Virus record (IMG/VR): IMGVR_UViG_3300049491_000716
Coordinates: 1 to 64,000 of that record
Strand: one strand, 5' to 3'
Source: a virus
DNA length: 64,000 nucleotides
The notes under the pieces are model-generated. The model did not search any database and was not told the DNA's origin. It worked only from the letters and a program-made list of their open reading frames with translations. The stretch's first letter is position 1. Each line of letters opens with the position of its first letter. A program made the translations under genes and the position numbers. Shown here one piece after another: positions 1,989 through 25,886 of this stretch.

Positions 1989-2155
1989 CGGCACCGCACG
2001 GACGAAGCCTTGCGGGAAGTAGTGAAACGGAGTATGCGGCTTCTTCTTGTGCATATCAACCCTTGTTGCAACTTTGCGACTGGAGATTGTGCGGAAAAGA
2101 TCGCTTTGGTAGGGGTAATATTGCCCGACCGACGGTCCATTCGCTAAGATCAGGG

Positions 2156-2239
2156 TGCACCCGACGGGGCTTGAACCCGTACGCTTCCTAGGGCTTCGGT
2201 TTTAAAGACCGCTGTGTCTACCAGTTCCACCACGGATGC
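2156..2239 (-). tRNA. tRNA-Leu-like gene with anticodon TTA (predicted UAA suppressor)
   Basis: The leftward strand folds as a class II tRNA. The acceptor stem is GCATCCG/CGGGTGC with one G-T pair, the D-arm is Leu-like (TGGTGGAA...GGTAGACAC), the variable arm is long, and the T-arm is perfect (ACGGG-TTCAAGC-CCCGT). The anticodon arm is GCGGT-CTTTAAA-ACCGA: four pairs plus a G-A mismatch at 27-43. The 7-nt loop places the anticodon at 2203-2205 as 5'-TTA-3', which pairs with UAA. The 3' CCA is not encoded (ACCC follows). The fold is clear; the decoding assignment depends on the loop register, which the GGT/ACC inner pairs fix. Confidence 0.75.
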
Positions 2240-8676: not shown

Positions 8677-9597
8677 GTGGCTGCAATCGACCAGAAGCAC
8701 TTTCAAGACGAAGCTGAAGCCTTCGCCTACCTCGAATCTGTGTGCTGGCCGGAAGGCCCCGTTTGCCCGCACTGCGGCACGATCAACACCGCCTACGGTC
8801 TGACCTCGCGCCTGGGTCTGTACCGCTGTGGCGAGAAGGAATGCCGCAAGGACTTCACGGTCCGCGTCGGCACCGTGTTTGAAGACAGCCCCATCAAGTT
8901 GCACAAGTGGCTGCTTGCCGCCTACCTCGTCTGCGCATCGAAGAAGGGCATCAGCGCGAAGCAGTTGGAGCGCATGCTCGGCGTCAGCTACAAAACGGCG
9001 TGGTTCATGGCCCATCGCCTGCGTGAGGCCATGAACACCGACACCGACAAAAAGCTCGGCGGCGACTTTGGCATGGTCGAAGTTGACGAAACCTATTGGG
9101 GCAACGCCGGCAAGCAAAAGCCGGGCGCTCGCGGCGGCGACCATAAGATGAAGATCGTTTCCCTCGTTGACCGCAAGACCGGTCAGAAGCGTTCTGTCCA
9201 CGTCGCCGACGTGACGGCCGACACGTTGAAGCCGGTGCTGCAAAAGCACCTTGACGCGGCCACCACGCTGATGACCGACGAGGCCGCCGTTTACAGGAAA
9301 GTCGCGCCGTCCTTCGGTGACCACGAAACCGTCAACCACAGCGCCAACGAGTACGTGAACCGCATCCGTCCGTGGGTGACGACGAACACGGTTGAATCGT
9401 CGTTTGCGCTGCTGAAGCGTGGCCTGCACGGCACCTTCCACAGCGTCAGTGAACAGCACCTTCAGCGCTACGCGACCGAGTTCGACTTCCGTTGGAACAA
9501 CCGGATCAAGCTCGGCGTTGACGACGCGCAGCGCACGCGCAACCTGCTCGCCAGCATTCGCGGCAAGCGCCTCACCTATCGGCGGCTTGACTCGTAA
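8677..9597 (+). CDS. IS1595-family transposase, 306 aa
   Basis: It catalyses cut-and-paste movement of the element. An N-terminal zinc ribbon has C30, C33, C51 and C56, and a helix-turn-helix (ISAKQLERMLGVSYKTAW) follows. Catalytic acids fit the DDE pattern: D137 in VEVDETYWG, D201 in LMTDEAAVY and E240 in NTVESSFALLKRG. Length is normal for the family. GTG 8677 has a CAGGAG site, and the gene looks intact. Confidence 0.93.
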   Translation: MAAIDQKHFQDEAEAFAYLESVCWPEGPVCPHCGTINTAYGLTSRLGLYRCGEKECRKDFTVRVGTVFEDSPIKLHKWLLAAYLVCASKKGISAKQLERMLGVSYKTAWFMAHRLREAMNTDTDKKLGGDFGMVEVDETYWGNAGKQKPGARGGDHKMKIVSLVDRKTGQKRSVHVADVTADTLKPVLQKHLDAATTLMTDEAAVYRKVAPSFGDHETVNHSANEYVNRIRPWVTTNTVESSFALLKRGLHGTFHSVSEQHLQRYATEFDFRWNNRIKLGVDDAQRTRNLLASIRGKRLTYRRLDS

Positions 9598-9610: not shown

Positions 9611-10441
9611 GTGGCGCGCTGGGTACTCCCTTCGGCTTTGGTTCTTGGCATCTCCATTGCAGCGTTCCTATCGGTGTCCAGTTGGGCCAATGGTGAATGC
9701 CAAAGACCACACGCTAGTTCCGAGGCAAACGTAGGTGGCGAGAAGCCACCAAGCAGCCTTGCATCCCCCCCAAAGACTCCCATCGGCGACAGCCTCAAGC
9801 GCATAGCTGAAGCGCAAGAGGCTATAGCTGCTGCCAGCAAGCCCAGCGACGAAAAGGAGCGCGACCAGAGAGACCTTGAGGCGCAACAGGAGATGGCTTG
9901 TTGGGCTCGGTGGATGTTCTACGCCACCGCATTTGGCGCGCTCGTTGCCGTTGTCGGGACCGGGTTGCTGTTGGCAACCCTCAGGCATGCCCGTAGCAGT
10001 GCCGAGACGCAACTGCGGGCCTATGTCAACGTCTTTGACGTTCGCGCTAAGTGGCTTGCCGAACCGGATGATGTGATCATGAAGAACGTTCAAGTTCAAG
10101 TTCACTTCAAGAACACGGGCCAAACCCCGGCTTATGCCGTTACCTGTTGGATGCGGTTCGACAGCAAGCCTCGTGATGCCATGGTCTTTGACCTTGAAAC
10201 TCCGCACATTTCTGCAACTGGAGTTCAAGGTCCAGGCGCAATCAACCATCTTGAAGAGATGAAGCAGGTTGATTGCGCTACTGGCGTTGTGGCCGCTTGG
10301 AAAGCCGGAACGCAGTCGCTTTTCGTGTACGGAACAATCAACTACTCTGACGCATTTGATAGCGGCGAAGTTATTGGACACGACGGGACCAAGTACAGGA
10401 CCGGTAAGTTTGAAGCCCACAAAGGCGGTTACTCCACATAG
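9611..10441 (+). CDS. IS passenger: two-segment membrane protein, 276 aa
   Basis: An N-terminal hydrophobic segment (about 5-26), a Lys/Glu-rich linker (60-95) and a second transmembrane helix (100-123) precede a beta-rich domain with VQVHFKNTGQTPAYAV, reminiscent of immunoglobulin-like periplasmic domains. It starts 14 bp after the transposase stop, so they are probably co-transcribed. Function unknown. Confidence 0.75.
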   Translation: MARWVLPSALVLGISIAAFLSVSSWANGECQRPHASSEANVGGEKPPSSLASPPKTPIGDSLKRIAEAQEAIAAASKPSDEKERDQRDLEAQQEMACWARWMFYATAFGALVAVVGTGLLLATLRHARSSAETQLRAYVNVFDVRAKWLAEPDDVIMKNVQVQVHFKNTGQTPAYAVTCWMRFDSKPRDAMVFDLETPHISATGVQGPGAINHLEEMKQVDCATGVVAAWKAGTQSLFVYGTINYSDAFDSGEVIGHDGTKYRTGKFEAHKGGYST

Positions 10442-13185: not shown

Positions 13186-13214
13186 ATCGTACACAACAAA
13201 ACTGGGATGCGCAA
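13186..13214 (-). promoter_or_regulatory. Leftward early promoter with operator
   Basis: Read leftward: TTGCGC (13214-13209), a 17-bp spacer, TACGAT (13191-13186). The motif TTTTGTTGTG (complement of 13192-13201) abuts the -10 box. A repressor there would shut off the Cro-like gene and the whole left operon. Confidence 0.6.
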
Positions 13215-13302
13215 CTTTTTTGCACAAGCCATCTTTCATGACCTCAGGTTTTGTTAAAGCCAAGAATGTGCTGAAAACATTATTTGCGAGCCGCCCATGA
13301 TT

Positions 13303-13335
13303 TTGGTTGTGTCGCCGCTTTTGTTGTGCGATGAT
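13303..13335 (+). promoter_or_regulatory. Rightward early promoter with two operator-like sites
   Basis: TTGTGT (13307-13312), 17 bp, GATGAT (13330-13335). TTGGTTGTGT overlaps the -35 and CTTTTGTTGTG (13318-13328) lies just before the -10, mirroring the leftward promoter. The boxes match consensus only moderately, so strength is uncertain. Confidence 0.5.
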
Positions 13336-14219: not shown

Positions 14220-14301
14220 GCCTAACGGTTGAGCTAACCGGCGATTTGCGGAGGCGGGGTTTGGGCTAGGCTTTTATAGCCAAAACCCCGCCCATGTAGG
14301 C
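14220..14301. repeat. attC-like palindrome, left boundary of cassette 1 (degenerate)
   Basis: GCCTAAC (14220-14226) at the left pairs with GTAGGC near 14296-14301. Inside lies a strong hairpin, GGCGGGGTTT (14253-14262) with AAACCCCGCC (14283-14292). The outer boxes match the attC inverse and core site pattern, but the right core lacks one T of GTTAGGC. No terminator T run is present. Confidence 0.4.
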
Positions 14302-14313
14302 AACTGGAGGACG

Positions 14314-14646
14314 ATGATGACAGACGGAAAGCTACTTGAAGCCGCCGCAAAGGCTGCGGGGTTTGCCTACCGGTGGGAGCCGGGACTGCCATTTCCTCAG
14401 ATTGAAGAGCTGGAAGATGGTCGGCTTGAATGGAACTTCTGGCATCCGCTAACGGACGACGGCGATGCGTTGCGGCTGGCGACACAACTGCGCATTGACA
14501 TTTGTTTCGAGAAAACGCATTCGGTCAGTGCCTATACAGAGGATGATGAGTGGTTTCACGAACACTGCGACCAAGGGAAGCCCGAGCAGATTTTGGCCAA
14601 GACGCGTAGGGCGATTGTTTGCGCAGCCGCTTCTATGTCGGCATGA
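14314..14646 (+). CDS. Phage ABA-sandwich-like protein in a cassette-like unit, 110 aa
   Basis: Starts at ATG 14314 after CTGGAGG. The pattern LLEAAAKAAGF...WNFWHPLTDDGDALRLATQL resembles the small phage ABA-sandwich family, which also occurs in integron cassettes. The gene stands alone between two attC-like palindromes, 13 bp after one and 14 bp before the other. Biochemical function unknown. Confidence 0.65.
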   Translation: MMTDGKLLEAAAKAAGFAYRWEPGLPFPQIEELEDGRLEWNFWHPLTDDGDALRLATQLRIDICFEKTHSVSAYTEDDEWFHEHCDQGKPEQILAKTRRAIVCAAASMSA

Positions 14647-14659
14647 GGGTATTGGTGCT

Positions 14660-14759
14660 GCCTAACGTCGAAGCTCAGGCGCCCGACACGGCGCCTGGGT
14701 TGACGAAGTAGGCAAGGTGCGGCCCGCCGTGGCGGGTCGCTTGGAGCGACCAGTTAGAG
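14660..14759. repeat. attC-like site, right boundary of cassette 1
   Basis: GCCTAAC (14660-14666) and GTTAGAG (14753-14759) bound a 100-bp imperfect palindrome. The outer arms pair well: CTAAC..GTCGAAGCTC against the complement of GGAGCGACCAGTTAG. Two inner hairpins are present (CAGGCGCC/GGCGCCTG; GCGGCCCGCC/GGCGGGTCGC). Length and architecture fit integron attC sites. The stop codon of the leftward HTH gene lies in the right core box. Confidence 0.55.
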
Positions 14760-14948
14760 CGCTGATGGATCAGGAGCAACCGATGCAGGACGACCGACAG
14801 GGCGAGCAGGCACACCGACTTGCGAGGCGATGCGGCGTGCCTGGTGCACTGACAGCCCGAATTTGCGCGCAGCTTCGGCCGCAGTGCCGTGGCCAGCGGC
14901 GAGCCACTTGGCTACGCGCTCGGCCGCCGCGGATGGGCGCCCGCTCAT
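14754..14948 (-). CDS. HTH protein, 64 aa
   Basis: Residues 8-45 (AERVAKWLAAGHGTAAEAARKFGLSVHQARRIASQ) form a helix-turn-helix of the resolvase/MerR type. Last gene of a three-gene leftward unit. Its TAA stop falls inside the attC-like core box, suggesting truncation or fusion at the cassette junction. Confidence 0.6.
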   Translation of the reverse strand: MSGRPSAAAERVAKWLAAGHGTAAEAARKFGLSVHQARRIASQVGVPARPVGRPASVAPDPSAL

Positions 14949-16260: not shown

Positions 16261-18531
16261 GTGACTAAAAGCATTGTAGGCGGGTACGAGTCATTCATTC
16301 AAGACAAAGCGCTGGCGCAGATTGCGACGGGCTTTGATCCGCAACGACTCGGCCCCCACCTGTTCGATTTCCAGGCGGCCATCGTCGAGTGGGCTTGCAA
16401 GCGAGGCCGCGCTGCGATCTTCGCTGACACCGGCCTGGGCAAGACGGCGATGCAAGCCGAATGGGCCAGACAAGTAGCGGCCCATACTGGTGGCCGCGTG
16501 CTGATCCTGGCCCCTTTGTGCGTGGCACAGCAGACTGTCGAAGAAGAGGCGCGATTCGGCACTGCGATCAAGTATTGCCGCAAAGAGGCACAGACAGAAG
16601 GCGAGATCATCATCACGAATTACGAGATGGCGGACCACTTTGACGTAGCCGACTATGCCGGCGTGGTGCTGGATGAGTCTTCGATCCTGAAGAGCCACGA
16701 CAGCAAGACGCGGGCGCGCATCATAAGCATGTTCGACAAGACGCCGTACCGGTTGAGTTGCACCGCGACCCCAAGCCCGAACGATCACATGGAGCTTGGC
16801 AACCAGGCCGAGTTCCTGGGCGTGATGACGGCCGTTGAAACGCTGGCGATGTTCTTTGTTCACGACGGCGGAGACACCGCAAGCTGGCGCCTGAAAGGCC
16901 ACGGCAAGCAGCGCTTTTGGGAGTGGATGAGGACATGGGCTGTGTGCGTGCGCAACCCGTCGGACCTTGGCTTTGATGGATCGCGCTACATCCTGCCGGG
17001 CCTGCAAATGCACGAGCACACAATCGATGTGCAAGAGCCGCTGCCGGGGCAGTTGTTTGCTGGCATTGCGCAGACGCTGACCGAGCGCCGCGACGCAAAG
17101 CGGCAGTCGTTGGGCGAACGTGTTTGCATTGCCGCCGATCTGGTCAACAGCCACACGCGGCCAGCCATTGTGTGGTGCCACCTGAACGACGAAAGCAAGG
17201 CGTTGGCGCAGGCCATCCCCGATGCCATCGAAGTCACCGGTTCCATGACGGCCGACGAGAAAGAGGCCGCAATCATGGCCTTCACGCATGGCGAGAAGCG
17301 AGTGATCGTCACAAAGCCAAGTATCGCTGGATTCGGCATGAATTGGCAGCACTGCGCCGATATGGTTTTTGCTGGTCTTGATGACTCGTTCGAGAGCTTT
17401 TACCAGGCGGTGCGGCGCTGCTATCGCTTCGGCCAGAAAGACGTGGTGAACGTGCATCTGGTGTCGTCAAGTGCCGAGGGCGCAGTGAAGGAAAACCTGC
17501 AGCGCAAGCAAGCCCAGGCTACTGACATGGCCGAGAGCATGGTGGCGTACATGCGAGAACTCACGAAACAAACGATCAAGGGTGCGACGATGGAAAAGAG
17601 CGACTACGTGCGAGAAGTAGCCGAGGGCAAGGGCTGGACGATTCACCTTGGCGATTGCGTCGAAGTGGCAAGCGAACTGCCTGACAACAGCATCGACTTC
17701 TCAGTGTTCAGCCCGCCGTTTGCCAGCCTATACACCTACAGCAACAGCGATCGCGACATGGGTAACTGCAAGAGCTACAGCGAGTTTTACGATCACTTCC
17801 GGTTCCTCGTTGCGCAACTGTACCGCGTCACCAAGCCTGGCCGGCTGCTGAGCTTCCATTGCATGAATCTGCAAACCAGCAAGTTCCGCGACGGCGTGAT
17901 CGGCCTGCACGACTTCCGTGGCGAACTCACGCGCATGTTTGTCGCGGCCGGCTGGGTCTTCCATTCCGAGGTTTGCATCTGGAAAGACCCCGTGACCGCG
18001 ATGCAGCGCACCAAGGCCCTGGGCCTACTGCACAAGACCATCCGCAAGGATTCGAGCATGAGCCGGCAGGGCATCCCTGATTATCTGGTGACGATGCGCA
18101 AGCCTGGCGAGAATGCCGAGCGCATCAGCCACACTCACGAGAATTTCCCTGTCGAAAAGTGGCAGCGTTACGCCAGCCCGGTCTGGATGGACGTGAACCC
18201 GACTCGCACGCTTCAATTTCGCAACGCCCGCGAGACTGACGATGAGCGCCACATCTGCCCGCTCCAGCTTGACGTGATCGAGCGAGCTATGGAGTTGTGG
18301 AGCAACCCGGGCGACTTGGTTTTTAGCCCGTTTACGGGCATCGGCAGCGAGGGCTATGTGAGCATCGAAATGGGCCGGCGCTTTGTTGGCGCGGAACTCA
18401 AGCGGAGCTACTTCGACTTGGCAAAACGCAATCTGACTGATGCCCGCAAGACTCAGGTCGAAGGGCTGTTCGCTGACGATTACGAGGATGCATTTGCAGA
18501 AGATGGCGAGCCACAGGCGGCGGAACTGTGA
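16261..18531 (+). CDS. Helicase-DNA methyltransferase fusion, 756 aa
   Basis: The N-terminal 430 residues form a superfamily 2 (SNF2-like) ATPase: Walker A ADTGLGKT (55-62), DES (138-140), SCTAT (166-170), QAVRRCYRFGQ (382-392). The C-terminal part is a beta-class amino-methyltransferase with catalytic SPPF (484-487) before the SAM-binding FSPFTGIGSEG (688-698). Such fusions occur in phages and may mark phage DNA against restriction; the target site is unknown. GTG 16261 follows GGGAG. An internal ATG (residue 444) could yield the methylase alone. Confidence 0.88.
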   Translation: MTKSIVGGYESFIQDKALAQIATGFDPQRLGPHLFDFQAAIVEWACKRGRAAIFADTGLGKTAMQAEWARQVAAHTGGRVLILAPLCVAQQTVEEEARFGTAIKYCRKEAQTEGEIIITNYEMADHFDVADYAGVVLDESSILKSHDSKTRARIISMFDKTPYRLSCTATPSPNDHMELGNQAEFLGVMTAVETLAMFFVHDGGDTASWRLKGHGKQRFWEWMRTWAVCVRNPSDLGFDGSRYILPGLQMHEHTIDVQEPLPGQLFAGIAQTLTERRDAKRQSLGERVCIAADLVNSHTRPAIVWCHLNDESKALAQAIPDAIEVTGSMTADEKEAAIMAFTHGEKRVIVTKPSIAGFGMNWQHCADMVFAGLDDSFESFYQAVRRCYRFGQKDVVNVHLVSSSAEGAVKENLQRKQAQATDMAESMVAYMRELTKQTIKGATMEKSDYVREVAEGKGWTIHLGDCVEVASELPDNSIDFSVFSPPFASLYTYSNSDRDMGNCKSYSEFYDHFRFLVAQLYRVTKPGRLLSFHCMNLQTSKFRDGVIGLHDFRGELTRMFVAAGWVFHSEVCIWKDPVTAMQRTKALGLLHKTIRKDSSMSRQGIPDYLVTMRKPGENAERISHTHENFPVEKWQRYASPVWMDVNPTRTLQFRNARETDDERHICPLQLDVIERAMELWSNPGDLVFSPFTGIGSEGYVSIEMGRRFVGAELKRSYFDLAKRNLTDARKTQVEGLFADDYEDAFAEDGEPQAAEL

Positions 18532-18532
18532 T

Positions 18533-18590
18533 GCACAACGTTTGAATTCACCTGCCGCCGGAGGCGGTCAGGTGGAATGAAGGGTTATGC
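18533..18590. repeat. attC-like site, left boundary of cassette 2
   Basis: GCACAAC (18533-18539) and GTTATGC (18584-18590) are the outer boxes of a 58-bp imperfect palindrome. The arms (TTTGAATTCACCTG-CCGCC against GGCGG-TCAGGTGGAATGAA) pair with a few extrahelical bases, which is the attC hallmark. GTTATGC is also the core box of Vibrio cassette repeats. Confidence 0.6.
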
Positions 18591-18620
18591 GTCTGATTCA
18601 ACAACGAAGGAATTTGAAGC

Positions 18621-18875
18621 ATGAGACAAAGCCTGTTGGTAGCCGCGCTTGAATATGAGGAAGGCGGACAAACTCTGTGGTTTCATGCGCCTGATGGAAC
18701 GACGCTGCTGCGCCTAAAAGTCGATGGAGCTATCACGACACAAACATGCGAGACAAGCCCTGTCGCGCATGCCGATGGATGGGTGAAGGGGAACTTGGTT
18801 TTTTGCGTTCCGGAGAACAAGACGCATAACGTCGGCGATGAGCGGACCGCGAAGGCGCCGCCTACCGACGAGTGA
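18621..18875 (+). CDS. Cassette-type hypothetical protein, 84 aa
   Basis: A soluble beta-rich protein (QTLWFHAPDGTTLLRLKVDG). Its last 17 residues are encoded by the downstream attC-like site, as often happens in integron cassettes. The start lies about 36 bp after the presumed recombination point, a normal cassette leader. Function unknown. Confidence 0.6.
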   Translation: MRQSLLVAALEYEEGGQTLWFHAPDGTTLLRLKVDGAITTQTCETSPVAHADGWVKGNLVFCVPENKTHNVGDERTAKAPPTDE

Positions 18876-19051: not shown

Positions 19052-19130
19052 CTACGCCACCAAGATGGACCGCGATACCTTGCAGCACGCAGAGGACTTC
19101 GCGGACTGCAAGACGCCCAACGTGTTCTAG
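19023..19130 (+). CDS. Possible 35-aa peptide
   Basis: Overlaps the preceding ORF in another frame; ends DFADCKTPNVF. No independent evidence beyond position; only one of the two overlapping ORFs is likely real. Confidence 0.25.
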   Translation: MEVARTWQPDYATKMDRDTLQHAEDFADCKTPNVF

Positions 19131-19170
19131 GCAACTCGTTAGATTGCAACCAGACCCAAGAGATGTGAGG

Positions 19171-25400: not shown

Positions 25401-25886
25401 ATGAAAACCAATCGCAATTTCTCCGGCTTCACGTTGATCGAAGTCCTCATCGTCGTGGCGCTGATCGGCATCCTGGCCGCCATCTCGCTGCCGGTCTACC
25501 AAGACTACGTCAAGCGCACGAAGCTCACCGAAGTCCTGCTGGCCGCATCAACCTGCCGCACCGCGGTTACCGAGGTCGTGCAGACTGCTGGCGTCCTGCC
25601 GGCAGCCGGTGCGTGGGGATGCGAGAGCGCGACACCGACTTCCAAGTACGTGGCTGCCGTCGAGACCGATGCCTTTGGGGCCATCCACGTGCTGGTGTCC
25701 GGCATCGGCGACAAAAACATTGACGGCCACTACGTGAGCCTCGTACCCTTGGCTACCGGCGACGTTCCGCCTGTGGCCGGCGACACCATCTTCCGCTGGG
25801 TTTGCGGCAACCAAGCCGTGCTTGGCACCAGCACTTTCGTGACCGACATCCCTGCCAAATTCCTGCCGGGCTCTTGCCGCGGCTGA
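25401..25886 (+). CDS. Type IV pilin precursor (PilA-like), 161 aa
   Basis: Complete class III signal: [20 protein letters not shown] with cleavage after Gly9, Phe10 becoming +1 and Glu14 at +5. The hydrophobic helix and a C-terminal cysteine pair (RWVCGNQ ... PGSCRG) are typical of type IVa pilins. It has a good site (AAGGGG) and a length usual for pilins. It could be assembled into host pili or minor-pilin complexes and change phage receptor or motility. Confidence 0.9.

Follow-up and report, generated by a model that had tools for sequence, protein, structure and literature searches.

Phage attC sites and gene cassettes, often without an accompanying intI, were described by Qi et al. 2023 (PMC9892861), with several of the sites shown experimentally to recombine with IntI1; for the virulent phage TJE1, two attCs were tested and found active with IntI1 in the same work. 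The phage CALINs and integrons of that study resemble the locus described here in combining attCs and cassettes in phage genomes, but the genes of the TJE1 array lie in sense to their attCs, whereas those of the present phage and its relatives are inverted, and many of the related phages possess a dedicated IntI clade. Betaproteobacterial chromosomal integrons share with the phage arrays the order IntI-attI-array, a related IntI and the attC type (a model built mostly from betaproteobacterial chromosomal sites finds the phage sites); they differ in that phage cassette genes run towards intI and chromosomal ones away from it. In Treponema integrons (PMC3607928), intI and the cassette genes also point in one direction, but there intI itself is turned and transcribed towards attI, whereas the phages have intI in its normal position and it is the cassette genes that are reversed, such that transcription would reach intI last. 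We found no description of inverted phage cassettes in the open-access literature searched (preprints not covered).

The window analyzed here comprises 64,000 nucleotides (positions 1 to 64,000 of the 80,304-base IMG/VR virus record IMGVR_UViG_3300049491_000716). Its unit at 14220-14665, in the phage early region, is very probably an integron gene cassette of an inverted kind; recombination by IntI is inferred.

attC sites of the window

For attC detection, a covariance model was trained on 19 accepted sites, drawn from class 1 integrons on plasmids and from chromosomal integrons of Betaproteobacteria and all oriented along the direction of their genes; it superseded a simple hairpin finder, which had recovered few reference attCs and missed site P2. 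The scan of the 64 kb yielded exactly three strong attCs, each on the minus strand: P3 (18533-18590; 46.8 bits, E 8.3e-9; R'' GCATAAC, R' GTTGTGC), P4 (18824-18925; 36.9 bits, E 1.7e-6; R'' GCCGAAC, R' GTTATGC) and P2 (14660-14760; 34.0 bits, E 8.2e-6; R'' GC(T)CTAAC, R' GTTAGGC). The fourth-ranked match, with 12.7 bits, is at chance level. P2 is placed at the 3' end of a 110-residue gene (14314-14646), and P3, the best-scoring site, starts straight after the stop codon of a helicase-methyltransferase gene, adjoins the second cassette unit and scores 46.8 bits on the minus strand versus 5.9 bits on the plus strand. The R' core of P2 fits GTTRRRY, and those of P3 and P4 are each one base off, a deviation also present in several accepted sites of the model alignment; all three sites satisfy the criterion of an R' core with a complementary R''.

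A fourth palindrome, P1 (14220-14301, minus strand), folds strongly as DNA (z -5.0), but its whole-site score of 9.7 bits (E 0.48, filters off, 7.5 kb) fails the attC model. It retains a canonical R'/L' arm, which over 22-24 nt is about 95% identical to attCs of viral loci L245, L231, L265, L214 and of other phages, while its R'' is cut to GCCTAC and its left arm swapped for another hairpin. Given the strong fold and the one canonical arm, we read P1 as a degraded attC.

These results bear on an initial annotation made from sequence alone, which had placed the 110-residue gene between a degenerate palindrome at 14220-14301 and an attC-like site of about 100 bp at 14660. Both features held, the former as a palindrome with one canonical arm and the latter as a full attC. 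The proposed likeness of the right halves of P2 and P4 also held: GCGGCCCGCCNNNGCGGGTC is common to both, and among 408 fetched loci viral locus L236 alone repeats it, within an attC. The annotation would have been refuted by the absence of an attC score for either palindrome; with P2 and P4 scoring strongly, this refutation fails. It had overlooked the direction of the sites, all of which lie on the minus strand and run antisense to the genes.

The inner hairpin of P2 (14660-14713) was considered as an attC of its own and dropped, as it reached just 14 bits; it is taken here as the variable region of P2, because the L236 attC contains a similar inner stretch. An exact search of viral contigs with 22 bases of 14660-14760 gave no match, and Rfam returned no named family at the window sites. 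At 19115-19144, 30 bp carry only R''-like and R'-like boxes (GCCCAAC...GTTAGAT) and score 7-8 bits; they may be what is left of a further site, or may have arisen by chance.

Cassette units and their boundaries

An integron cassette opens with the R' of the preceding site, and these bases are the complement of the R'' in the cassette's own attC. On the minus strand, the first unit (14220-14665) extends from the R' of P2 to the R' of P1 and encloses the inverted gene; the R' of P2 (GTTAGGC) and the R'' of P1 (GCCTAC) are complementary apart from one missing base. The other unit (18534-18829, minus strand) is a 296-bp cassette extending from the crossover point in the R' of P4 to that in the R' of P3, and the R' of P4 (GTTATGC) is the exact complement of the R'' of P3 (GCATAAC) at 7/7 positions. 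Its gene (18621-18875, plus strand) has a reading frame that enters attC P4; no relatives of this gene were found. Between both units lies a gene of the phage backbone, a helicase-DNA methyltransferase fusion (16261-18531, plus strand), behind which the closest relative, L002 (89% identity), has no attC. GC3 is 0.59 for both candidate cassette genes, lower than for the helicase-methyltransferase (0.75) and RecT (0.81). The attC identity, orientation and cassette boundaries are thereby shown, with the boundary match at P1 short of one base. The two cassette-like units of the initial annotation held with two corrections, the degenerate state of 14220-14301 and the inversion of the cassettes relative to bacterial ones: with plus-strand genes and minus-strand attCs, the usual same-direction rule for cassettes is not satisfied.

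The 80,304-base record contains no TIGR02249 match for an IntI, which leaves the criterion of a complete integron unsatisfied, nor any tyrosine recombinase, although the record may be incomplete. Cassette movement in this phage would therefore need a recombinase acting in trans. The first unit (14220-14665) is probably frozen by the decay of P1; the unit at 18534-18829 is expected to have kept its mobility.

Inverted orientation across viral loci

A viral sample was drawn from contigs matching one short attC arm, a single pattern of betaproteobacterial type; at least 119 stretches were obtained and 80 loci kept. Of the 258 attCs that the covariance model finds in these loci, 256 (66 loci) were used to count orientation. 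With one codon model throughout, 355 neighbouring genes are antisense and 14 sense to their attCs, and loci divide 63 to 0. In Burkholderiales chromosomes, 30 loci found with the same covariance model and called with the same gene caller give 3 antisense versus 43 sense. Per-locus codon models lower the viral ratio to 316 antisense versus 59 sense for neighbours and 55 versus 6 for loci. The attCs of one array are not independent, and near-copy contigs are present (L353/L354, L193/L242), which makes loci the better unit.

In a codon-free test of 140 cassettes, the longest antisense ORFs match 75 PHROG and 17 Pfam families, and the longest sense ORFs of the same cassettes one of each. Unlike homology, a crude longest-ORF count fails to tell the strands apart (248 sense and 169 antisense in the viral loci), and this way of counting orientation was dropped as uninformative in viral, largely GC-rich DNA. 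The boxes R'(i) and R''(i+1) are complementary in 127 of 182 consecutive viral pairs (shuffled mean 41, maximum 52) and, by the same rule, in 11/18 pairs of bacterial arrays. TJE1 served as a positive control, and the model recovers its three attCs (29-32 bits) in sense orientation; the inversion is therefore neither a rule for all phages nor an orientation error of the model. The inverted layout is general in the sampled viral contigs.

Among 201 inverted cassette genes, 97 stop inside the attC behind them and 78 begin inside the attC before them, so that the protein often includes translated attC sequence. Unrelated cassette proteins (e.g. of L208, L236 and L251) carry recurrent ends (PNVRG, PNAELTG) and starts (SELSEGLG, PVERGVRR) that represent translated attC. 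A relative of the window phage (L034/L035, contig G432) has five attCs, two of them clear and three weak, and each is antisense to the genes (L034 1362-3293); one inverted gene is a small zinc-finger gene resembling Lar. A weak call in the L066 contig (19.4 bits) was rejected, because it falls within a relative's structural gene.

The 110-residue gene and its family

The cassette gene at 14314-14646 (plus strand) belongs to the phrog_5086 family (E 1.9e-20) and has a coding pattern like that of the phage's other genes, which confirms it as a real ORF. Its product is predicted to fold as helix-strand-strand-helix-strand-strand-strand-helix (mean pLDDT 71.6); Pfam gives no family and a structure search no confident match to a solved fold. 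The alpha-beta-alpha sandwich named by the initial annotation remains a possibility compatible with the predicted structure, unconfirmed by either search.

The family occurs beside or between attCs in four other array phages (L224, L265, L354 with two copies, and L355). Ordinary relatives lie in operons, with attCs at 0 of 76 viral loci; likewise, none of 8 loci in Burkholderiales genomes has an attC, and in four isolate phages the genes lie in operons without attC. The initial annotation would have been refuted by related phages carrying the gene with unrelated flanks; this condition applies insofar as the 76 viral loci have the family but lack attCs, yet the four array phages carry the family together with attCs. 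From this distribution, free in the one set and attC-flanked in the other, we infer a phage gene turned cassette; the simplest reading sees here a phage gene either converted into an inverted cassette or carried within one.

Phage IntI and cassette exchange

IntI is present in two of 50 viral contigs with arrays. Both contigs have tail and phage integrase genes, with IntI between the phage integrase and the array; in the second of them, the array runs across the contig ends. With one of the two IntIs as query, 28 viral loci were retrieved, and in 19 of the 27 newly scanned ones the model finds attCs. All 55 attCs of these 19 loci point away from IntI, as in any integron, with 97 genes antisense versus 3 sense and 18/19 loci inverted. 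Genes within 1.45 kb on the attI side are mostly on the intI strand in the phages (41 versus 3) and mostly on the opposite strand in chromosomal integrons (18 versus 8). The phage IntIs fall, in 22 of 24 cases, into one clade (support 100/97) among betaproteobacterial IntIs, and in 399 sampled Burkholderiales genomes no IntI exceeds 62% identity to the phage IntI used as query. Virus Rctr41k encodes an IntI-like protein and was set aside, as the model finds no attC in it. Matches of cassette ORFs include methyltransferases, Mom and a Tad2-like domain; these family names, without any test, raise the possibility of counter-defence cargo.

Exchange was seen between phages of this class. The siblings L349 and L359 are 92-97% identical over most of their flanks and differ in the whole array, their identity breaking off in the last attC, at its R' box, and resuming at the attI core G|TTA. 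L204 and L235 have one cassette in common (92.6% identity), with R' boxes as its limits. Differences of whole arrays and sharing of single cassettes, with breakpoints at R' and attI, are thus shown for the same phage class. The proposal of the initial annotation that the phage had repeatedly captured cassettes is largely supported. The precise presence or absence by which it was to be checked was seen in these same-class siblings only: no close relative shows the unit 14220-14665 present or absent, and its capture is therefore inferred by class.

A bolder reading, which we hold as one joint claim and consider likely, is that temperate phages of Betaproteobacteria have an integron class of their own: an IntI lineage known almost exclusively from viral contigs, located at the distal end of the early operon beside the phage integrase, with inverted cassettes that are read towards intI and shuffle small early and counter-defence genes, the window phage holding cassettes of this pool.

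Alternative explanations

The locus might be an ordinary bacterial cassette fragment (CALIN) from a host integron, with the usual arrangement of gene and attC. In favour of this, attCs are frequent in the sampled Burkholderiales genomes (52/80), and phage CALINs with sense genes are known from TJE1. Against it, every window attC is antisense to the genes, the family of the 110-residue gene is a phage family that occurs without attC in other phages and prophages, and the window attCs have arms and a variable region in common with attCs of phage arrays; we regard this explanation as very unlikely. That the palindromes are transcription terminators or operon RNA hairpins, resembling attCs by chance, is highly unlikely. 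P1 and P2 do fold well single-stranded, and attC hairpins may terminate weakly, but there is no T-run intrinsic terminator at P2 or P3 on the plus strand, the scores of 34-47 bits far exceed both the window background and the match in the structural gene noted above, and neighbouring sites have complementary R boxes, a requirement for cassettes.

A further objection is that the attCs are decayed remnants without present recombination and that the genes arrived by illegitimate recombination. The degenerate P1 and the lack of a detected recombinase in the window phage speak for it; P3 and P4, however, are intact and complementary, and cassettes are exchanged exactly within the same class, both between siblings and as single cassettes in common, which renders it unlikely.

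Proposed mechanism

The substrate of IntI is the folded bottom strand of attC, and excision is affected by whether this strand lies on the leading or the lagging template (PMC11023631). With attCs at the 3' ends of phage genes and facing backwards, the strand recombined by IntI would be the coding strand of the genes. An IntI from a co-resident phage or a host integron may have moved the gene into the window phage in trans. Early phage transcription would run through the cassettes, which would hence need no integron cassette promoter, and, where present, intI and then the phage integrase would be transcribed after them. The putative benefit is the swapping of small early and counter-defence genes.

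If this is true, phages own a gene-cassette economy consisting of recombinase, insertion site and cassette pool, and their cassettes can be distinguished from bacterial ones by the reversed gene direction. Ordinary phage genes that occur both free and as cassettes, such as phrog_5086, offer a direct route to study cassette origin, and inverted cassettes suggest how phages might trade counter-defence genes as units.

Other features of the window phage

Upstream of the first unit, inverted repeats at 13191-13329, of the type ACACAACAAAA / TTTTGTTGTG, are possibly operators of the early region. An IS1595-type (ISXO2-like) transposon lies inside the phage at 8604-10715, bounded by 35-bp inverted repeats of 91% identity and containing a transposase (8677-9597) and a further ORF (9611-10441). 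A tRNA gene at 2154-2239 (minus strand) has the anticodon TTA, which would decode TAA, a codon that 14 of 79 called genes still use as their stop. By the N-terminal motif as judged by eye, the ORF at 25401-25886 (plus strand) is type IV pilin-like, as is a second ORF at 15537-16007 of L347, on the phage-integron contig G481.
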